Shown one piece after another: positions 12,127 to 22,869 of a stretch of 39,240 bases of DNA (positions within the stretch are counted from its first letter, which is position 1; every line of letters begins with the position of its first letter). A program made the translations under genes and the position numbers. This DNA is from Patescibacteria group bacterium (lineage in GTDB: Bacteria > Patescibacteriota > Patescibacteriia > WFTA01 > S139-112). Under the pieces are notes generated by a model. The model made no database searches. It had not been told where the DNA came from and was given only the letters and a program-made list of their open reading frames with translations. The stretch is from NCBI GenBank assembly GCA_015485695.1, contig WFTB01000026.1, positions 1-39,240 of the forward strand, written 5' to 3'.

Positions 12127-12132
12127 ATGCAA

Positions 12133-14157
12133 ATGACAAATCAACCAAAAAAGGCGTTAAACAATATCGCCAAATTTTTCATAATCGTCGTTGTGAGTCA
12201 TTTGTTTTTTGCTCCAACGGCTCTTCTTGCCAAGGAGCCCTCAGACCCGTTTTATCCTCAGCAAATATATCTATCGAACATATACGCGCCTCAAGCATGG
12301 AATACCGTAACTGACGCGTCGGATATAATAGTTGCCGTAATAGATGCCGGTGTCGATATAGATCATGAAGATTTAAAAAACAATATATGGAAAAACGACG
12401 ACGAAATACCTGGGAACGGTATAGATGATGATGGAAATGGATTTATAGACGATGTTTATGGGTGGGATTTTATAAACGACGCTCCCGACCCGAGACCCAA
12501 ATTCGAAGACGGGTTCAGCGAGTTTGCGATGCAACACGGCACGGTTGTATCCGGTATTATAGGAGCGTCCGGCGGTAACGGAATCGGAACGTCCGGAATA
12601 GCGTGGAAAGTGAAAATAATGCCTTTAAGGGCTCTGAATTCAAGAGGCACGGGTGATATAGTCGCCATAGTGAGAGCGCTAAATTATGCCCGTCAAAACG
12701 GAGCGGACGTGATTAATCTGAGCCTGGTCGGAGACGAATCATCGAGCATGTTGGAGATAGAGTTGGACCAGGCTTACAAAGAGGGAATCGTCGTCGTGGC
12801 GGCATCGGGCAATGAGGGAATAAATTTGAACGAATTTCCAAGATACCCCATATGCAATAAAGGCCCCAAAGGAGAAGATTGGATTCTGGGAGTGTCGGCC
12901 ATTGATTTTGCGGGCAGAAAAGCGAAGTTCGCAAACTACGGAGATGACTGTGTTGACATAAGCGCTCCGGGGGTGAATATTTTTTCAACTCAATTTACGA
13001 GCAACCTCGAACCGGGATACGCGAATCCGTATATGGGAAAATGGTCCGGAACTTCCGTGGCCGCACCTCAGATAACCGGAGCCGTGGCTATGATAAAATC
13101 TCAAAACCCGAACCTGTCGGTTGATGAGATACGAGAAATCATAATATCGGAAGCCGACAACATTGATGATGTTAACCCATTGATACCCGGGATGCTGGGT
13201 GGTGGACGAATCAACCTCGAGAAGATAATGCAAAACGACCTTATCAAGTTCAATCAAAATGTAAAAGAAAGAGCTATTGTGACCGGAGCGGGTCCGGGAG
13301 GCGGTCCCCATGTCAAGGTATATGATTCACGAGGTGTTGTGCGCCAGCAGTTTTTCGCATACGATGACCCGAATTACAGTGAAGGAGTATATGCGAAATT
13401 GGGCGATGTGACGGGGGACGGCAAAACAGAAGTCGTAATATCTTCAGGCAAGGGTGTTGCCCCGATTATACAAGTTTACGATTCAACGAATAAGAAACTT
13501 TCTTCTTTTTTGGCTTATGAAAAAGACATGCAAAGCGGTGTTGAATTGAGCGTGTTTGACGTTGATGCGGACGGAAAATCCGAAATAATCACCGTGCCGA
13601 GGAACGGTTCTTCACCTCTTGTTCGCGTATTCGACGATTCCGGAAAATTAAAGAGAGAGTTTTTCGTGTTTATGCCGTCTCTTAAAAGCGGGGCTCGCAT
13701 GGATGTCGCCGACGTTGACAATGACGGTCTTGGCGAAATAGTAGTGGTACCGGACGCGAATTTGACTCCGGTGGTTAGAGTATACTCTTATCACGGATTT
13801 CTGGAACGGGAGTTTTATCCGTATGACACCGGCGTGACCAGGATTTTGACCGTTGGCGCCGGCCCCGGGATAATCGCGGTTGGAAACGGCAAAGGAAACT
13901 CCCCCGAAGTCAAAACCTTCAATTACAAAGGTGATGTGATTGATTCGTGGATTGCTTATTCCGATTCATTTAACGGAGGAATAAACGTTTCCGTGTCCGA
14001 TATCGATGATGATGGTATTTTGGAAATAATCACAGGACCTCAGAGAGGTGGCGGTCCTCATTTGAGAATATTCAACCCTTCTGGTAGAATTATTGCACAA
14101 TGGATGGCGTATAATACGGGGTTCAAAGGAGGTATCAGCGTTGGGTTGTCTAAATAA
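12133..14157 (+). CDS. Secreted subtilisin-like serine protease (S8) with FG-GAP/VCBS-like repeats
   Basis: 676 aa from ATG 12127 or 674 from ATG 12133; the latter is chosen because of the abutting TATAAT. Residues here are numbered from 12127. A signal peptide ('FFIIVVVSHLFFAPTALLA', about 17-35) precedes a full catalytic triad: D73 in 'VIDAGVDIDH', H137 in 'QHGTVVSG' and S310 in 'SGTSVAAPQ', with oxyanion N229. An Asp-rich insert 'GIDDDGNGFIDD' probably binds calcium. From about 385 the protein has beta-propeller-type repeats with calcium loops ('DVTGDGKTEV', 'DVDADGKSEI', 'DVDNDGLGEI', 'DIDDDGILEI'). No sorting signal or C-terminal TM is present, so it may be released or held non-covalently. 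C243 and C275 could form a disulfide. Confidence 0.93.
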   Translation: MTNQPKKALNNIAKFFIIVVVSHLFFAPTALLAKEPSDPFYPQQIYLSNIYAPQAWNTVTDASDIIVAVIDAGVDIDHEDLKNNIWKNDDEIPGNGIDDDGNGFIDDVYGWDFINDAPDPRPKFEDGFSEFAMQHGTVVSGIIGASGGNGIGTSGIAWKVKIMPLRALNSRGTGDIVAIVRALNYARQNGADVINLSLVGDESSSMLEIELDQAYKEGIVVVAASGNEGINLNEFPRYPICNKGPKGEDWILGVSAIDFAGRKAKFANYGDDCVDISAPGVNIFSTQFTSNLEPGYANPYMGKWSGTSVAAPQITGAVAMIKSQNPNLSVDEIREIIISEADNIDDVNPLIPGMLGGGRINLEKIMQNDLIKFNQNVKERAIVTGAGPGGGPHVKVYDSRGVVRQQFFAYDDPNYSEGVYAKLGDVTGDGKTEVVISSGKGVAPIIQVYDSTNKKLSSFLAYEKDMQSGVELSVFDVDADGKSEIITVPRNGSSPLVRVFDDSGKLKREFFVFMPSLKSGARMDVADVDNDGLGEIVVVPDANLTPVVRVYSYHGFLEREFYPYDTGVTRILTVGAGPGIIAVGNGKGNSPEVKTFNYKGDVIDSWIAYSDSFNGGINVSVSDIDDDGILEIITGPQRGGGPHLRIFNPSGRIIAQWMAYNTGFKGGISVGLSK

Positions 14158-15947: not shown

Positions 15948-16292
15948 ATGTCATCATCTTTTTGGCAATCGAGATTCAATCAATCGAGCTTATATGTAAG
16001 CGCGTTTTTAAATGTTTTGACATGGGGGCTGTTGGTTTGGAAAATAGTATTGCCGGGAGGGTCCGTTATTTTGCATTATACTGTATATCTTGGAGTCGAT
16101 ATATATGACGATGCGAGATATGCGATTTTTATTCCGTTGGTTGCTCTTGTTTTTTTGATAATAAATACGGTACTGTCGATTCTGACGTCAAAAAACGATA
16201 GAGAAATAGCTCAGATAATAATGGGAGTTACCGTTTTGATCCAAATCTTCGCCCTTGTTGCCGGCACCATAATCACTCTTGTGAATACATAA
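15948..16292 (+). CDS. Small hypothetical membrane protein (three helices)
   Basis: 114 aa with three clear hydrophobic spans (about 15-40, 58-78 and 88-112) and a short polar loop 'YLGVDIYDDARYA'. No family recognised. It begins 9 nt after the GT2 gene. Small membrane proteins beside DPM1-like transferases sometimes help position them at the membrane; that is only a guess here. Confidence 0.7.
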   Translation: MSSSFWQSRFNQSSLYVSAFLNVLTWGLLVWKIVLPGGSVILHYTVYLGVDIYDDARYAIFIPLVALVFLIINTVLSILTSKNDREIAQIIMGVTVLIQIFALVAGTIITLVNT

Positions 16293-16347: not shown

Positions 16348-16965
16348 ATGTATCAAAAGTTTAGCCAAAAGACGATTGAAGATTTTTCGGAATCAAACAT
16401 AGAATCAATGTACGATCAGGGTTTCGTGTTTACCAGAATCGCCAAAGGAACGATGAACCAAATCGAATCCGTAAGGGTTCGTCTTGACTCGTTTGAGCTT
16501 TCAAGCGAAAACCGAAGAATTCTGAAAAAGTTTGACAACATGAACGTATTCAAAAAACCGCTTCCGTATGATGATTATTCTTGGGAGATTGGGAAACTCG
16601 CGAAAAGTTTTTACAAAACAAGATTCGGGTCGGAAATATTTTCCGCCAACAAAATAAAAGAGCTTTTTACAGATTCGAAAAAGTCGAACATGAACGGAGT
16701 ATTGGTTTTCACAATACCGGAATACGGCACGGTCGGGTATTGCTTGACTTTTGACACGGAGCGAATATTGCATTACTCTTACCCGTTCTATGACATGAAT
16801 AAAACGACAGACAAAAGCACTGGAATGGCAATGATGGTCAAGTCCGTGCTTTGGGCGAAAGAAAACGGCAAAAAATTCATTTATCTTGGAAGCTTTGATA
16901 AGTACAAATTACAGTTCAAAGGAATCCAAGCGTATCACCCGGAAGATGGTTGGCGCGAAAGATAG
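16348..16965 (+). CDS. ATE/GNAT-like acyltransferase (arginyl/leucyl-tRNA-protein transferase C-terminal type)
   Basis: 205 aa, soluble. The second half reads like the C-terminal GNAT domain of arginyl- or leucyl-tRNA-protein transferases: 'GTVGYCLTFDTERILHYSYPFYD' followed by 'STGMAMMVKSVLWAKENGKKFIYLGSFDKYKLQFKGI'. The last segment matches the family pattern S-x-G-x(n)-WA-x-E-x-GK-x-x-YLG...YK-x-F. The N-terminal Cys-rich ATE domain is absent. Such domains move an amino acid from aminoacyl-tRNA to a protein N-terminus. FemABX-type GNATs that add amino acids to muropeptides have the same fold, and the next gene is a peptidoglycan-type ligase, so that alternative deserves thought. The family call is moderate and the substrate unknown. 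Confidence 0.55.
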   Translation: MYQKFSQKTIEDFSESNIESMYDQGFVFTRIAKGTMNQIESVRVRLDSFELSSENRRILKKFDNMNVFKKPLPYDDYSWEIGKLAKSFYKTRFGSEIFSANKIKELFTDSKKSNMNGVLVFTIPEYGTVGYCLTFDTERILHYSYPFYDMNKTTDKSTGMAMMVKSVLWAKENGKKFIYLGSFDKYKLQFKGIQAYHPEDGWRER

Positions 16966-17002: not shown

Positions 17003-17035
17003 TGCGCATTGAATCTTTAAACGATTGATTTGAAT

Positions 17036-18439
17036 ATGAAACACGTTCACTTTATAGGGATATGCGGAGTTGCCATGGCTCCGATAGCAAAGATGATGGC
17101 GGACCTCGGATGGAAGGTTTCGGGGTCTGATTCGGGTTTTTATCCTCCCGTTAGCGATTATTTGAAAAAACACCCGGAAATTGTTTTTTATCCCGGATTT
17201 CATCCTGAAAAAATGGGCAACCCCGATCTTGTCGTTGTGGGAGGTTTTATCAGTATGAAAAACCCCGAATTTATTTATGCCAGAAACAATAACATACCCT
17301 ATAAATCATATCCGGAGGTATTGGAAGAATTTTTGATAAAAGAGAACTCCGTTGTGTGTTCGGGAACTTACGGTAAAACAACCTCAACAGCGCTTGCGAC
17401 ACAAATATTGAAACTGGACAACCTGAATCCGTCATACATGTTTGGCGGAATAGTTTCCGGATTTTCCGACAGTGTTGGCGTGACGGATTCTGTTTGGTCC
17501 GTTGTTGAAGGAGACGAGTACATATCAAGTCGTTGGAACCCCGTGTCAAAGTTTTTTTATTACAAACCAAAATACCTGTTGCTTACGTCGGCATCATGGG
17601 ATCATTCGGATGTTTTTCGTTCCGAAGAAGAATTCGTGGAAAATTTCAGAAAACTGGTGCAGACAATGCCGAGTGACGGAATCGTGGTGGCGAACAGGCT
17701 CGATGAAAATCTAGACAAAGTCATAAAAGACGCTCCATGCAAAGTTGTCAGATATCAAGGGCGAAAAAGCGACGAAGCAAACGTTTATAATGTAGTTTCT
17801 CGCAGTCCGGACGGAGATTTGACTCGTATATCGATAGAATGCGAGGCAAACGGATTCTCCGAGAGCTTTGAAACGACCCTTATCGGGTCGCACATGATTG
17901 ATAACATTACCGGTGTTGTCGCTCTTTTGAATGAGGCTGGAATAGGCGTAAAATCCATGCAAGACGGAGTATCTGAATTCCGGGGAGTGAAAAGGCGATT
18001 GGAAATTCGAGGGAGGACAAGAAACGGAGTAACGATTATTGATGACCTGGCGCACTCGCCGGCGAAAGCGCTCGCGGGATTGCACGCTTTGGGGCATCGG
18101 TTCCCTCTTCGTACGCGAATTTTCGTCGTATACGAACCCAATGTGGGCAACAGGACGATAGAATCTCTCCCCGGCTATGATCGCGCCTTCGGATTGGCCC
18201 ATGAGGTGATAATACCGCGCTTATCCAAAACAAAGACAAAAAAAGACGAAACCAGAATAAACGGAAAGGAATTGGCGAAAGTTATAGAAAAAACCCAAGA
18301 AAACGTTAAATACATCGAAGATGACGATGAGCTTGTCAAGTACATCAAAAAAAACACCCGAGAAGGCGATGTCGTTGTGTTCATGGGAGCTCACGGATTT
18401 AGGGGCATGATTGAACAGGTGCTTGAAAGGGCCGGCTGA
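17036..18439 (+). CDS. Mur ligase of the Mpl/MurC type
   Basis: 467 aa from ATG 17036; the track's 17030 is a TTG two codons earlier. Three Mur-ligase domains are visible. The N-terminal Rossmann domain has 'HFIGICGVAMAPIAKMM'. The ATPase domain has the P-loop 'CSGTYGKTTS' (about 107-116) and 'VEGDEYISSRWNPVSKFFYYKPKYLLLTSASWDHSDVF', which closely matches Mpl's 'EADEYDTAFFDKRSKF...LNNLEFDHADIF'. The C-terminal domain has 'IIDDLAHSPAKALAGLHAL'. Mpl joins UDP-MurNAc to the recycled tripeptide; MurC joins L-Ala. With no other MurC here it might do either. It lies near mraY and the ATP-grasp cluster. Confidence 0.85.
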   Translation: MKHVHFIGICGVAMAPIAKMMADLGWKVSGSDSGFYPPVSDYLKKHPEIVFYPGFHPEKMGNPDLVVVGGFISMKNPEFIYARNNNIPYKSYPEVLEEFLIKENSVVCSGTYGKTTSTALATQILKLDNLNPSYMFGGIVSGFSDSVGVTDSVWSVVEGDEYISSRWNPVSKFFYYKPKYLLLTSASWDHSDVFRSEEEFVENFRKLVQTMPSDGIVVANRLDENLDKVIKDAPCKVVRYQGRKSDEANVYNVVSRSPDGDLTRISIECEANGFSESFETTLIGSHMIDNITGVVALLNEAGIGVKSMQDGVSEFRGVKRRLEIRGRTRNGVTIIDDLAHSPAKALAGLHALGHRFPLRTRIFVVYEPNVGNRTIESLPGYDRAFGLAHEVIIPRLSKTKTKKDETRINGKELAKVIEKTQENVKYIEDDDELVKYIKKNTREGDVVVFMGAHGFRGMIEQVLERAG

Positions 18440-18543: not shown

Positions 18544-18726
18544 TTATTTTTCAGTCTCAACGATTTCGGGATTGTTTATCTCGCGCGCACCATCGTTGTC
18601 TCGTATATCATGAGCTTCAAGAGTTATACCGCATGTGGGGCATTCGAAATGTTCACTTTCTTCGAGAGACTCATGGTCAAGGTTTATATCGTTTTTACAT
18701 TCCGGACAAATTGCGTGATATGACAT
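18544..18726 (-). CDS. Small acidic LysW-like zinc-ribbon protein
   Basis: 60 aa. Four cysteines in two CPxC knuckles (C7/C10 'CPEC' and C29/C32 'CPTCG') are separated by an acidic stretch and followed by an acidic tail ending '...NPEIVETEK'. Spacing and acidity match LysW-type amino-group carrier proteins, on which ATP-grasp ligases build lysine or arginine precursors. The canonical LysW C-terminus EDWGE, whose last Glu is the attachment site, is absent and the last residue is Lys. It may therefore be only a structural zinc ribbon. It is one of two - strand genes in the first 27 kb and diverges from the PLP/ATP-grasp genes. A perfect 12-bp palindrome lies just upstream. Confidence 0.72.
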   Translation of the reverse strand: MSYHAICPECKNDINLDHESLEESEHFECPTCGITLEAHDIRDNDGAREINNPEIVETEK

Positions 18727-18734
18727 ATTGATAA

Positions 18735-18746
18735 TTTAACGTTAAA
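18735..18746. promoter_or_regulatory. 12-bp palindrome in the divergent region
   Basis: TTTAACGTTAAA is a perfect palindrome about 9 bp upstream of the LysW-like start and about 100 bp upstream of the PLP gene. It could be an operator for either divergent unit, though AT-rich palindromes of this size also arise by chance. Confidence 0.3.
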
Positions 18747-18847
18747 ACTTCAAAAATCGAAAGATTGCTCGACCAATACATTCTAGACAAAAATAGAAGC
18801 ATAGTCAATTGCTAAAATACGTTTTATCTATCAGATAATAAAACACT

Positions 18848-19753
18848 ATGGAATCAGATTTTACACCGCTTGAACAATATGATTCGCTTGCTAGACGGCT
18901 CGGACTTGAAAAGCTGTTTATCAAGCGCGAAGATCTCAATCCTTCAGGCTCGCATAAAGACAGGGGAGTGTGGGGAATGATGCTCGGGCACATGGATGAA
19001 GGTGTCTCAAATTTCGTTATTTCTTCGTCCGGAAATTCGGCAATATCCGCTGCGTATTTTATGCAAAAATCGCAAAACAACGAAAATAACAAATTATACA
19101 TATACATCTCCCCGAGGATGTCGAATGAAAAGCGCGAACGACTTGATGAAATAGTCAATGACAATCCCAATATTGAAGTACGTTTGTCGGAACGGGCGAA
19201 AAGCGATGCATTTGCATTTGCAAAGGAGAGTGGTTTCCGGTTGTTGCGCGCGTCGGTCGATGACAGAGCGCTAATCGGTTATGGTGACTTGGCTCGCGAG
19301 ATAAACAATCAGATTGATGGCGACTTATCATATCACATATTCATCCCAACATCATCGGGGACTACGGCTCTGGGGCTTTACAAGAGTTTTAAGACTGACA
19401 ATATTGGGCAAACACGCGAAATATCGATACACATAGCGCAATCAGTGGCGTGTAATGTAATCGCAAAAAAATTTGATTCCGATTTTACTCCGTCAGACAC
19501 GTCGTTGGCGTCCGCCATAGTGGATACGATAGGGCATCGCAAAAAAGAAGTAATCGAGGCGGTGAAAGATTCAAACGGATTCGGATGGGTAATAAGCGAT
19601 GACGACCTCATAAAAGCCAGAGAGCTTCTGGAATCCTATACGGATATTTGCGACGCAGGGTGGGACTCTCTCTTGTCGTTGGCGAGTCTTATGAAAGCCA
19701 TGAAGACAAGAAACGACATAAAAAACGCCATATTGATATTTACCGGCAAATAA
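18848..19753 (+). CDS. PLP-dependent enzyme, threonine synthase/tryptophan-synthase-beta superfamily (fold type II)
   Basis: 301 aa. Fold-type II signatures in order: 'EDLNPSGSHKDRG' with K37 as the predicted Schiff-base lysine (compare NPTGSFKDRG in ThrC), 'SSSGNSAISAAYF' (59-71) as the substrate carboxylate loop, and 'TSSGTTALGLYKSF' (about 165-178) as the phosphate-binding loop. It is shorter than classical ThrC (350-480 aa) and lacks its extra N-terminal domain. Reactions of this superfamily are beta- or gamma-replacements or eliminations on amino acids; the actual one cannot be named. Its stop is followed after a single base by the ATP-grasp start (TAA-A-ATG), so the two are almost certainly translated together. 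Confidence 0.86.
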   Translation: MESDFTPLEQYDSLARRLGLEKLFIKREDLNPSGSHKDRGVWGMMLGHMDEGVSNFVISSSGNSAISAAYFMQKSQNNENNKLYIYISPRMSNEKRERLDEIVNDNPNIEVRLSERAKSDAFAFAKESGFRLLRASVDDRALIGYGDLAREINNQIDGDLSYHIFIPTSSGTTALGLYKSFKTDNIGQTREISIHIAQSVACNVIAKKFDSDFTPSDTSLASAIVDTIGHRKKEVIEAVKDSNGFGWVISDDDLIKARELLESYTDICDAGWDSLLSLASLMKAMKTRNDIKNAILIFTGK

Positions 19754-19754
19754 A

Positions 19755-20942
19755 ATGCAATTTTTTGTAACAAACAACATAGAACGCGTGTCCGGAATGA
19801 ATTTTGAAAACCATCCGAATTTGCGTATAATCTCAAACAACTCTCCATTGGCGGAAGTCTTGCTTGAGAAATATCCGGACAGGATCATATTAAACACGGA
19901 TGATGAGTTTTTGAGCACCCTGGATTTGATGAAAAAATTCTCCGATAAGATAGATTCTGGATCCAAAATAGCGGTATTCAAAAACACAATTCATATTCAA
20001 CGTTTTTGCGAACAAAACGGATGGATTAATGTTCATGCCGACGCGGAAATCGGGAAAATGCTCGAAGACAAAGTGAGTCAACACTCTTGGCTCGTCGACA
20101 ACGACTTTGGTTCCGTGATTCCGAAAACATATACCGGTTTCGTTGAGTCTTTTGAATTTGAAGACTTGGGCGAGCGACTTGGCTTGCCGTTTATATTGCA
20201 ATACAATTCCGGGCATACGGGCTCAGGGACAAAATTAATATCGAATTCCGATGATTGGAGCATGGAATTGAGAAAATTTCCAAAACGAGATGTTAAAATA
20301 TCACGATTTATTGAAGGTGATACATATACGATAAACGCGTGCGCGATGGGCGATAAAATTCAATGCGGAAAAACAAGTCTGCAAATTACCGGGATTCCCG
20401 ATTTGACTGATAATCCTTTCTCGACAGTCGGCAATGTCTGGGGTGAGGATTCTTATTGGGTTCACGATAAGATAAAAAATATGGCTCAAGAAATCGGAAA
20501 AGCCATGATATCCATCGGTTGGAAAGGTTTGTTCGGCATAGACGTAATCAAAGAATCGAAAACCGGAAAGTTGTTTCTTATAGAAATAAACGCTCGACAA
20601 ACAGCGTCCGCCAGCTTTGAAAATCGTCTTGCCAATTTACAAAAAGCGTCCGGTCCTCTCGATTGGTTAATGCGCTCCTTGTTTGACTCCGATTGCGATT
20701 TTCCCGTGGGTGAGACTTATTATAACGCCTCTCAGTTATCGGTAAGAAAAAAATCCGGAAAATTCCACGAAAAGTACGGCGATTTTGACAAGGTTGGGGA
20801 GTGGGACGACGAACTCGGCGCATTCGAAGAAACCCCTACATTTAGTCTTCCACCTCAATCAAACAAGGTATTTGTAATACCGAAGGCAACTGCTTCAGAA
20901 ATTATTCGTATACAATCTCGAAAGCCTTTGATTTGGCATTGA
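19755..20942 (+). CDS. ATP-grasp ligase of unknown substrate
   Basis: 395 aa. An N-terminal pre-ATP-grasp region (1-105) is followed by the ATP-grasp core: a Gly-rich nucleotide loop 'LQYNSGHTGSGTKLI' (about 154-168), 'SRFIEGDTYTINACAMGD' and the Mg2+ residues D263 ('GLFGIDVI') and E277/N279/R281 ('LIEINARQTAS'). These features fit the carboxylate-amine ligase superfamily that includes D-Ala-D-Ala ligase, LysX and carbamoyl-phosphate synthase. The last 80 residues are an unassigned beta-rich tail. Such enzymes activate a carboxylate as acyl phosphate and join it to an amine. Tight coupling to a PLP enzyme suggests that enzyme makes or edits the amino substrate. It is not an obvious ddl, purD or purK. 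Confidence 0.83.
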   Translation: MQFFVTNNIERVSGMNFENHPNLRIISNNSPLAEVLLEKYPDRIILNTDDEFLSTLDLMKKFSDKIDSGSKIAVFKNTIHIQRFCEQNGWINVHADAEIGKMLEDKVSQHSWLVDNDFGSVIPKTYTGFVESFEFEDLGERLGLPFILQYNSGHTGSGTKLISNSDDWSMELRKFPKRDVKISRFIEGDTYTINACAMGDKIQCGKTSLQITGIPDLTDNPFSTVGNVWGEDSYWVHDKIKNMAQEIGKAMISIGWKGLFGIDVIKESKTGKLFLIEINARQTASASFENRLANLQKASGPLDWLMRSLFDSDCDFPVGETYYNASQLSVRKKSGKFHEKYGDFDKVGEWDDELGAFEETPTFSLPPQSNKVFVIPKATASEIIRIQSRKPLIWH

Positions 20943-20974
20943 TGGCGATAAAAACGTGTTTTTTCTCGGTTTTT

Positions 20975-21002
20975 TTGAAAAAAGCCGATTATATGCTACA
21001 CT
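20975..21002 (+). promoter_or_regulatory. Possible promoter for the NlpC/P60-like gene
   Basis: TTGAAA (20975-20980), 16-bp spacer, TACACT (20997-21002). The predicted start near 21009 would give a leader of only about 6 nt. The -35 lies in the right arm of a TCGGtTTTTTT...AAAAAAGCCGA hairpin that may also end the ATP-grasp transcript. Confidence 0.4.
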
Positions 21003-21014
21003 GATAAACGCCTT

Positions 21015-21752
21015 ATGGATGAATTATTGTCAAAAAACGGCATTGAAACGATAGACAAATATGCCAATCTGCCGATAGGTGAGCGCGCAATTCGTTGCCC
21101 ATACTACAAGAACTCGACGCTGGCAAGGGCATTGTCGGTTTATTCCGGAAAAGGGTCACCGCAAGAAATAGTAGACGAAGTATCTGAACTGTCCCATAAA
21201 GAACGAATCGATTTTTCTTCATGCTCCGACAGTCAGGTTCGGGATTTTTTGATTGAACACGGAATCGGTATTGACTGTTCCGGGTTTGTCAGCAATGTGT
21301 TAAACGATATAAACCCCGAAATCATACGCGGTATACAGCTGGACAAAGCGCGCAAAAATCCAATCATGAACTGGTATGTTAATCGGTTTCGAAAAATATC
21401 AAACATATCCGTTAAAACTTTGACATCCGATAAAAACGCGCATGAAATAAAAAGCCTTCACGATATAAGGCCGGCGGATATGATAGAAACCAGAAACGGA
21501 CAGCATGTTTTGTTGGTATTTCGTGTTGTTATGGCTGAAGATTATGTGAGAGAAATCGAATACGCTCACTCTACGATGTACTACGGAAAAGAAAACGGAG
21601 TCAGAAAGGGGACTATCAAAATAACTCAAAAAGACAAAGACTTGGGAAATCAAGAATGGACGGAAGTTGACGATAATACGGGAGTGAATTATACCCACGA
21701 AGGTTATCTTGATGGCGGGAGAGTTTTCCGGTTAAGATATTTTACTAATTGA
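21015..21752 (+). CDS. Cytosolic NlpC/P60-like cysteine hydrolase
   Basis: 245 aa. The NlpC/P60 core is recognisable: 'GIDCSGFVSNVL' with the likely nucleophile C88, then 'IRPADMIETRNGQHVLLVFRV', which matches the family's L-x-P-G-D...HVGI block with H164. A polar residue near 'YAHSTMYYG' could complete the triad. Known members cut D-Glu/DAP bonds in peptidoglycan peptides or act as amidases or acyltransferases. Unlike exported wall hydrolases it has no signal peptide, TM or SH3 domain, so it should act in the cytoplasm. It lies 72 nt after the ATP-grasp gene and 4 nt before mraY, suggesting a link to muropeptide precursors or recycling. Confidence 0.68.
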   Translation: MDELLSKNGIETIDKYANLPIGERAIRCPYYKNSTLARALSVYSGKGSPQEIVDEVSELSHKERIDFSSCSDSQVRDFLIEHGIGIDCSGFVSNVLNDINPEIIRGIQLDKARKNPIMNWYVNRFRKISNISVKTLTSDKNAHEIKSLHDIRPADMIETRNGQHVLLVFRVVMAEDYVREIEYAHSTMYYGKENGVRKGTIKITQKDKDLGNQEWTEVDDNTGVNYTHEGYLDGGRVFRLRYFTN

Positions 21753-21756
21753 TTAC

Positions 21757-22869
21757 ATGACTGAAATAATCTCACAAAGCTTATTATTCCTCGTGGCAAG
21801 CGCGTTTCTCGGTTTTGTTTTGGCGAACCCTCTTATTGAGGTTTTAAAGTCTCTGGGAATAACTCGCAGAGGGGAATACGACGACACGACCATAATCGAA
21901 GGAAGAGTGGGCAAGGTCGGAACCCCGATAATGGGTGGCGCTTTGGTTATAATGGTTGTCGCTATAATAACAATATTGTTTAACTGGGACAGGAGGTTTA
22001 CATGGGTACCAATGGGAGTCATGGCTCTATCCGCTCTTTTGGGGGGAGCTGATGATTTGTTGAACATATTCGGGCACATACGTCGTATTCGAAAAATAGA
22101 TCACATAAAACGTTTGTCTCGAGTTCACAAACACGCATACATGCGCGCGTGGTTTAAATTGCAAATTCCGTGGACAAGAATCAAACGTTTCTTTCTGTTC
22201 ATAGGTTCAAGACCCGGAAAAGGAATACAAGTCCATGAAAAGTTGTTTTTTCAACTTGTGGCGGGCGCAATAACGGCCTGGTGGTTGTTTGTGAAACTTG
22301 GTCCCGAATGGGAGAGGATGTGGATTCCATTTGTCGGGGAGGTCGCTATAGGCTGGTTGCTGATTCCGCTTATCATATTGGTTGTCATGGCTACGGCAAA
22401 TGCGGTTAATTTTGCCGACGGCTTAGACGGATTGGCGGGCGGAACGCTCATAACATCGTTCGGCGGATTGATGATTGTTGCTTGGTTGCAAGGTAATATT
22501 TATTTTGCGGTAATGAACGCAACGGTAATAGGCGCTCTTCTTGCTTATACTTATTTCAATGTTAAGCCTGCGCAGTTTGAGATGGGGGATATCGGCTCTC
22601 TGGGTCTCGGGGCATTGCTTGCCGTAATGCTGATAGCTCAAAACAGAATTTTATTACTTCCTTTTTTCGGATTTATTTTTTTTCTTGAGCTCGGGTCCGT
22701 TATTTTGCAACTTTTTTGGAGACATTTTTTCGGTAGGCGCCTATTTAAGATGTCTCCATTGCACCATCACTTGGAAATAAAAGGTTGGTTGGAAGAAAGA
22801 ATAGTTCAGCGTTTTTGGATTCTGAACGCAATAGCGGTATTTATAGGGATCTGGCTTTCCGTGCATTAA
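21757..22869 (+). CDS. mraY: Phospho-N-acetylmuramoyl-pentapeptide transferase
   Basis: 370 aa polytopic protein with about ten helices. MraY/WecA-family landmarks are 'GKVGTPIMGGALVI' (about 50-63), 'GGADDLLN' (about 89-96), 'NAVNFADGLDGLAGG' (catalytic Asp loop), 'MGDIGSLGLGALLAV' and the His-rich 'MSPLHHHLEIKGW' loop that distinguishes MraY. It transfers phospho-MurNAc-peptide to undecaprenyl phosphate, giving lipid I. Two oddities: the usual DDxxK reads DDLLN, and the cytoplasmic loop after it carries about 45 extra, strongly basic residues ('HIRRIRKIDHIKRLSRVHKH...'). The gene follows the NlpC/P60-like gene by 4 nt and ends in a terminator. Confidence 0.94.
   Translation: MTEIISQSLLFLVASAFLGFVLANPLIEVLKSLGITRRGEYDDTTIIEGRVGKVGTPIMGGALVIMVVAIITILFNWDRRFTWVPMGVMALSALLGGADDLLNIFGHIRRIRKIDHIKRLSRVHKHAYMRAWFKLQIPWTRIKRFFLFIGSRPGKGIQVHEKLFFQLVAGAITAWWLFVKLGPEWERMWIPFVGEVAIGWLLIPLIILVVMATANAVNFADGLDGLAGGTLITSFGGLMIVAWLQGNIYFAVMNATVIGALLAYTYFNVKPAQFEMGDIGSLGLGALLAVMLIAQNRILLLPFFGFIFFLELGSVILQLFWRHFFGRRLFKMSPLHHHLEIKGWLEERIVQRFWILNAIAVFIGIWLSVH

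Follow-up and report, generated by a model that had tools for sequence, protein, structure and literature searches.

The MurC and MurD steps of cell-wall synthesis are drug targets and are regarded as nearly universal among peptidoglycan-bearing bacteria. In a described variation, the MurD2/MurL pair of Xanthomonas, L-glutamate is epimerised on UDP-N-acetylmuramic acid (UDP-MurNAc)-L-Ala-L-Glu, avoiding MurI. Small carrier proteins are known from amino acid synthesis: true LysW ends in EDWGE, whose glutamate is the attachment point, and the CysO/CysM/Mec+ system of Mycobacterium tuberculosis uses a ubiquitin-like carrier with a thiocarboxylate to make cysteine. Here we analyse a stretch of 39,240 nucleotides from a Patescibacteria group bacterium (contig WFTB01000026.1 of assembly GCA_015485695.1, the whole of which we call the window), in which genes for a LysW-like zinc ribbon, a pyridoxal-phosphate (PLP) enzyme, an ATP-grasp ligase and an NlpC/P60-like hydrolase lie beside an Ate1-like transferase, a MurC-type ligase and mraY. 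From the sequences we tentatively propose, as a reading that falls just short of probable, that this set is the core of an alternative route to the UDP-MurNAc-dipeptide, replacing MurC, MurD and the glutamate racemase MurI in many of the ultrasmall Patescibacteria.

A gene set conserved as a unit

The locus comprises the following features:
16348-16965, plus strand: Ate1-like aminoacyl-tRNA transferase (a GNAT of the arginyltransferase family), proposed source of the first residue of the stem
17030-18439, plus strand: MurC-type ligase with an Mpl-like active site, proposed to attach a preformed dipeptide to UDP-MurNAc
18544-18726, minus strand: LysW-like acidic zinc-ribbon protein of 60 amino acids (aa), proposed covalent carrier; C-terminal lysine codon at 18547-18549
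18727-18847: intergenic gap separating the LysW-like gene from the divergent PLP gene
18848-19753, plus strand: fold-type II PLP enzyme, 301 aa, threonine-synthase-like (PALP 6.6e-33), proposed racemase on a carrier-bound residue
19755-20942, plus strand: ATP-grasp ligase, 395 aa (ATP-grasp_3 6.3e-08), proposed carrier-loading ligase
21015-21752, plus strand: diverged NlpC/P60-like cysteine hydrolase without a signal sequence, 245 aa, proposed to release the product from the carrier
21757-22869, plus strand: mraY (MraY 1.8e-50), next user of the proposed UDP-MurNAc-peptide product and a member of the conserved neighbourhood

A preliminary description of this DNA had named four open reading frames (ORFs), from the ribbon to the NlpC-like gene, with their key residues and spacings, all of which we confirmed in the sequence: the ATP-grasp gene starts one base past the PLP stop, and mraY starts (21757) 4 nt past the NlpC-like stop. 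The ribbon gene is on the minus strand, opposite to the PLP, ATP-grasp and NlpC-like genes. Profile searches took in about 400 Patescibacteria genomes, and the gene absences reported below rest on them; G and L numbers are our labels for sampled genomes and for loci or neighbourhoods, respectively. A first round with the ATP-grasp protein found three clear relatives among 57 genomes, at about 30-45% identity, in which the order Ate-like, MurC-type ligase, LysW (divergent), PLP, ATP-grasp, NlpC-like, mraY was kept. The Ate-like gene was not found in G001, where the gene order is otherwise the same, and G039 is an exception, with Ate-like, LysW, PLP and ATP-grasp genes only, near an ATP synthase operon; a core Ate-LysW-PLP-ATP-grasp set away from Mur genes, upstream of an ATP synthase operon, is seen at L012:5042-8078.

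Searches of 380 Patescibacteria genomes gave many more relatives of the set, and every record that came back from scanning 85,462 species genomes was from Patescibacteria, including Uhrbacteria, Magasanikbacteria and Taylorbacteria. Some 40 further neighbourhoods showed the same genes again in two main orders, with LysW and PLP divergent in all 32 loci holding both (gap usually 30-170 bp). Several members are fused in single ORFs: ATP-grasp with the NlpC-like domain (L061, L024), Ate-like with the Mpl-like ligase (L055), the Mpl-like ligase with the NlpC-like domain (L083) and, in the type II locus L087 (types are defined below), ATP-grasp with a canonical SH3-NlpC/P60. Gene content, order and fusions show that the LysW-like ribbon, PLP, ATP-grasp, NlpC-like, Ate1-like and MurC-type ligase genes are conserved as a unit. 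The earlier proposal that the four genes form one functional set, with a ribbon that is LysW-like, is borne out by profile matches and by strong co-occurrence across related genomes, and the PLP, ATP-grasp and NlpC-like proteins, which belong to or resemble superfamilies, each fall under every single-function cut-off, so that neither the co-occurrence nor the family assignment of the ATP-grasp and PLP proteins refutes it. Its list of members was right for the four genes named and overlooked the Ate1-like gene and the neighbouring Mpl-like ligase.

Three genomes taken at first to hold the ATP-grasp gene only (G352, G254 and G076) were rejected as such, LysW and PLP genes being found elsewhere in each; most of the remaining ATP-grasp-only genomes apparently carry another ATP-grasp family. 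Among variants of the neighbourhood, an ATP-grasp with a C-terminal Nudix-like domain occurs in two genomes (L062:8466-10163, L068:8070-10055), and three loci have a free-standing Nudix-like gene close to the cluster. In family f130 (L070, L076, L077) a MurF-like gene is near the NlpC-like gene and mraY, with LysW 1.4-4 kb from PLP and divergent still; in L076 a Ddl-like gene also adjoins the MurF-like, NlpC-like and mraY genes.

Loss of MurD and MurI

We distinguish type I genomes, with the full set and without MurD, from type II genomes, in which LysW, PLP and ATP-grasp are accompanied by an in-cluster MurD-like ligase. With the cluster-type PLP enzyme called at E < 1e-50, 34 of the 380 genomes were positive: 28 without MurD (best match 7e-28, a cross-hit) and six with an in-cluster MurD-like ligase (G141, G412, G380, G075, G112, G076). 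MurD passed the cut-off in 0 of the 28 type I genomes versus 258 of the 346 genomes without the PLP gene (Fisher test, 5e-16, with shared ancestry ignored); many of the MurD-less genomes among the 346 gave no more than one or two Mur ligase hits and perhaps have no wall pathway. Type I genomes are spread over 15 families. The first cluster-positive genomes lacked canonical MurD and all cluster-negative class mates tested have it (split over two contigs in G028), and in profile searches no match reached the level of MurD for G000 or for any of the type I genomes. G059 and G193, found via the PLP search and not read earlier, are also MurD-negative and provide an independent check. That the set takes the place of MurD is, at the level of gene content, well supported.

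The preliminary description had overlooked this loss, and with it that of MurI. True MurI motifs were found in none of the 31 cluster-positive genomes searched; 13 of 28 other genomes had PF01177 hits, of which the six that we read are MurI, and three of the 28 (G352, G254 and G076), later recognised as cluster-positive, had no PF01177 hit. The PF01177 hits in G000, G168, G338, G280, G329 and G380 were considered as MurI and rejected, their motifs (GGMGP, GCTELPL) being those of RacX/YgeA-type racemases; some cluster-positive genomes, G000 among them, encode amino acid racemases of this type (L157-L164).

Type II genomes keep canonical MurC in all three cases in which MurC was read, and in five of the six an SH3-NlpC/P60-type protein is encoded within the cluster or as part of an ATP-grasp fusion. 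A truncation of the type II MurD at its N-terminus was considered and rejected, as these proteins are full length but diverged. The type II arrangement fits carrier-bound glutamate without alanine. Two type I loci that also hold the Mpl-like ligase have a second, MurD-like ligase beside PLP (L020:14438-15736, L017:9755-10648).

Changes in the MurC-type ligase and an accompanying transferase

In type I genomes the MurC-type ligase is the only ligase with a UDP-binding domain. The L-Ala contacts of MurC are His376, Arg377, Arg380, Tyr346 and His348 (PMC3060825); the Tyr346 equivalent is replaced and HHP is changed to SP or NP in 28/28 type I ligases, and the Gln before Pro is Glu, the Mpl state, in 26 of the 28. 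The Tyr and Gln are kept in 17/18 canonical enzymes (a comparison set from Patescibacteria and E. coli), and the window ligase has replaced the L-Ala-binding residues Tyr346, His376 and Arg377. It scores 263 bits against murC (cut-off 335.1) and 235 against mpl (cut-off 388.7), under both; across type I, MurC scores drop from 426-452 to 213-295 bits, about 150-200 lower, with Mpl scores the same or higher. Evolutionarily, type I ligases cluster with E. coli Mpl (support 96/85), canonical MurCs form a separate clade (98/96), and type II in-cluster ligases group with MurD (100/100); the residues outweigh the tree here because the E. coli Mpl branch is long. Together these comparisons show the type I MurC-type ligase to be Mpl-like in its predicted active site.

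Because members of the Ate1 family use aminoacyl-tRNA to extend an N-terminal residue by an amino acid, we predicted before searching that an Ate1-like gene would accompany the Mpl-like ligase; the known acceptors of Ate1/Bpt are N-terminal acidic residues. Across 61 genomes, it was found in 25 of 29 type I, 0 of 7 type II (one of which, G094, lies on a broken contig) and 0 of 25 MurD-positive genomes. The window protein matches NCBIfam arginyltransferase at 1e-10, under the cut-off, and Pfam ATE_C with 15.9 bits (cut-off 25), and relatives reach 25.1 and 25.9. These searches show that the Ate1-like gene, as recognised by profile, occurs with the type I set only.

A candidate carrier and its enzymes

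The window ribbon passes the Pfam LysW (PF21344) cut-off (32.4 versus 27 bits), 32 of 33 relatives match the same family, and its nearest solved structure is Thermus LysW (3wwl, E 1.9e-10); it is not a member of the LysW/ArgW equivalog, scoring 15.1 against a cut-off of 53.2 bits for TIGR01206. An alignment of 33 LysW-like proteins has just five invariant columns, the zinc cysteines C7, C10, C29 and C32 and the final residue, K60, a C-terminal lysine found in 33/33 candidate carriers versus 15% of the other proteins in the same loci. The preliminary description was right that the EDWGE tail is missing, and no member of the family has it: in all, an acidic stretch runs directly into a final Lys. 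Its caveat that carrier function is therefore unproven carries less force, since a family with its own invariant tail ending in Lys offers no evidence against a carrier role, and a covalent carrier would require just such a fixed end to a tail that otherwise varies. Functionally, the ribbon may work like LysW as an amino acid carrier.

The residues named for the three enzymes, K37 (PLP), D263/E277/N279 (ATP-grasp) and C88/H164 (NlpC-like), are invariant in alignments of 21, 24 and 18 relatives, respectively. The cluster PLP family is present in all cluster-positive genomes and absent from 25 MurD-positive genomes; its SSSGN loop is conserved, and the Ser of the SSG loop, which is also found in non-racemases, is kept in nearly all of the 21. 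Against the threonine synthase equivalogs it reaches at best 90.8 bits, under the cut-off of 358, and Asn154 and Arg160, two residues with a role in Thermus threonine synthase, align to other residues. The ATP-grasp (AlphaFold model pLDDT 91.6) had no LysX-type match over cut-off in profile searches; ligation onto a lysine side chain in the manner of PylC is a conjecture from the shared Pfam family ATP-grasp_3, and we found no paper in its support. In the NlpC-like protein a D/E87 precedes the invariant C88. Type II NlpC proteins are clear NlpC/P60 members; type I proteins are too diverged for assignment by fold, with relatives matching NlpC/P60 at E 6.2e-05 and 0.0056 and one (L064) at 23.4 bits.

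A possible protein-borne route and its alternatives

These observations suggest that the core of carrier, ATP-grasp, PLP enzyme and hydrolase serves to produce a D-glutamate unit and set it free. In its specific form, which we regard as possible but hold a shade more loosely than the general proposal, the route would have a protein-borne, tRNA-dependent start, in which the carrier's C-terminal Lys is the site where D-Glu arises and is coupled to the first residue, and the dipeptide is then loaded on UDP-MurNAc in one step, bypassing MurC, MurD and MurI. We infer the chemistry of every step from sequence. The ATP-grasp, with ATP, would link glutamate to the C-terminal Lys of the carrier, probably via its gamma-carboxylate and most simply to the side-chain amine; the PLP enzyme would act on the free alpha-amino end of the bound residue to give the D form; the Ate1-like protein would draw on aminoacyl-tRNA to add an amino acid, L-Ala being the likeliest, at the free amine; the NlpC-like hydrolase would cut the capped unit off the carrier; and the Mpl-like ligase would attach the dipeptide to UDP-MurNAc, with MurE-like and MurF-like ligases and MraY continuing as usual. 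In type II the transferase step would be absent, MurC adding L-Ala in the ordinary way and the in-cluster MurD-like ligase adding the glutamate released from the carrier. The link from gamma-carboxylate to Lys side chain is a guess that would allow the remaining steps: the PLP enzyme and the transferase would have access to an unblocked alpha-amino acid end, and the hydrolase to a gamma-D-Glu-Lys bond. The NlpC/P60 enzyme YkfC releases L-Ala-gamma-D-Glu from Lys or diaminopimelate (PMC2954226). The cell-wall precursor very probably made here agrees with the earlier suggestion of a cell-wall peptide product, except that a standard step would be replaced and no muropeptide decorated.

Several points count against this route. 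The absence of MurI is weak evidence alone, because many MurD-positive Patescibacteria also have no MurI hit, and we take it as supportive, not decisive. No Ate1-like gene is detectable in four type I genomes (G001, G369, G391 and G399), two of them less than 90% complete. The nearest solved relatives of the PLP enzyme are threonine synthases, not racemases, and a Foldseek search with the ATP-grasp returned generic ATP-grasp-fold relatives (583 matches at E<=0.001) and no functional pointer. The window NlpC-like protein matches Pfam NlpC/P60 at E 0.096 (13.1 versus a cut-off of 23 bits), and a fold search with its model found no NlpC/P60 structure, the best match being IdeS (E 0.005). Finally, the sole Mpl studied acts poorly on L-Ala-D-Glu (PMC3060825).

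The PLP enzyme could have an activity other than racemisation; that it supplies a new residue, as first suggested, is possible and not favoured. The residue at position 2 might accordingly be something other than D-Glu, the PLP enzyme converting the carrier-bound residue by beta-replacement or in the manner of threonine synthase to give a non-standard stem peptide, as its closeness to threonine synthases and the genomes without MurI would allow. We consider this unlikely, as type II genomes have a MurD relative together with an NlpC/P60 protein that keeps the gamma-D-Glu-binding residues, and the MurE- and MurF-like ligases have the same form in MurD-positive and MurD-negative genomes, from which the product should resemble the normal dipeptide. 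These ligases lack the N-terminal UDP-binding domain (PF01225), which we considered as support for assembly of the whole stem on the carrier and rejected, because essentially every sampled Patescibacteria genome, set or no set, shows this domain loss (e.g. L001/L148, L002/L149).

Somewhat more doubtful is a scheme with no covalent carrier, in which UDP-MurNAc-L-Ala receives glutamate or another residue directly from the ATP-grasp and the ribbon is just a subunit for binding or regulation; where the ATP-grasp occurs MurD is missing, and ATP-grasp enzymes do form peptide bonds, but the Mpl-like shift of MurC with loss of its L-Ala site, the Ate1-like transferase and hydrolase in the set, the type II MurD-like ligase and the invariant C-terminal Lys would all be left unexplained. 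Salvage, in which host-dependent bacteria have lost MurC, MurD and MurI activity and recycle host stem peptides with NlpC/P60 and Mpl beside unrelated neighbours, draws on Mpl and YkfC being recycling enzymes (PMC3060825, PMC2954226) and on some MurD-negative genomes also having no obvious Ddl, but is improbable given that the NlpC/Mpl pair occurs in many families together with, and fused to, the carrier, PLP, ATP-grasp and Ate1-like genes, and that MurE and MurF homologues, which scavenged tripeptides would make partly needless, are retained.

Elsewhere in the window, a 114-aa membrane protein (15948-16292) lies upstream of the Ate1-like gene and is conserved in G019 only among the loci read, and positions 12127-14157 encode a large subtilisin-like protease with FG-GAP-type repeats.

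Comparison with known systems

No description of such a route was found in full-text literature searches, whose coverage of subscription papers is thin, and the carrier-borne route looks like a previously undescribed way of building the cell wall. If true, at least 15 Patescibacteria families would have a second route, and the first two residues of the wall peptide could be made otherwise than by the MurC-MurD steps; carrier-protein chemistry, known from the synthesis of amino acids and natural products, would reach into cell-wall building, with tRNA delivering amino acids, and several 'hypothetical' genes in a large bacterial radiation would gain a use.

The window ligase is like Mpl (murein peptide ligase), a recycling enzyme that ligates ready-made peptides, in its active-site changes and tree position, but falls under the Mpl cut-off, is the sole MurC-type ligase of its genome and lies in a biosynthetic cluster. 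Type II hydrolases share the SH3-NlpC/P60 architecture of YkfC/dipeptidyl-peptidase VI and keep the DCS motif and the small residue that bind gamma-D-Glu (PMC2954226), whereas they have no equivalent of Asp256, for a free N-terminal L-Ala, and the type I proteins are far more diverged. To the Ate1/Bpt aminoacyl-tRNA-protein transferases the window protein bears a weak but specific family match; it is under the family cut-offs and is tied to wall genes, not to protein degradation. CysO/CysM/Mec+ resembles the set in its use of a small carrier's C-terminus, a fold-type II PLP enzyme and a releasing protease, with no homology of carrier or protease. As in MurD2/MurL, MurI would be avoided and D-Glu made after attachment to a larger carrier, but here that carrier is proposed to be a protein, and MurD is absent in type I. 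The LysW/ArgW pathway of lysine and arginine synthesis in Thermus and archaea has the same-Pfam acidic zinc ribbon, an ATP-grasp loader, release by a hydrolase and gene clustering; the set described here departs from it in having a C-terminal Lys for the Glu of EDWGE, a fold-type II PLP enzyme, an NlpC-like releaser and wall enzymes as partners.

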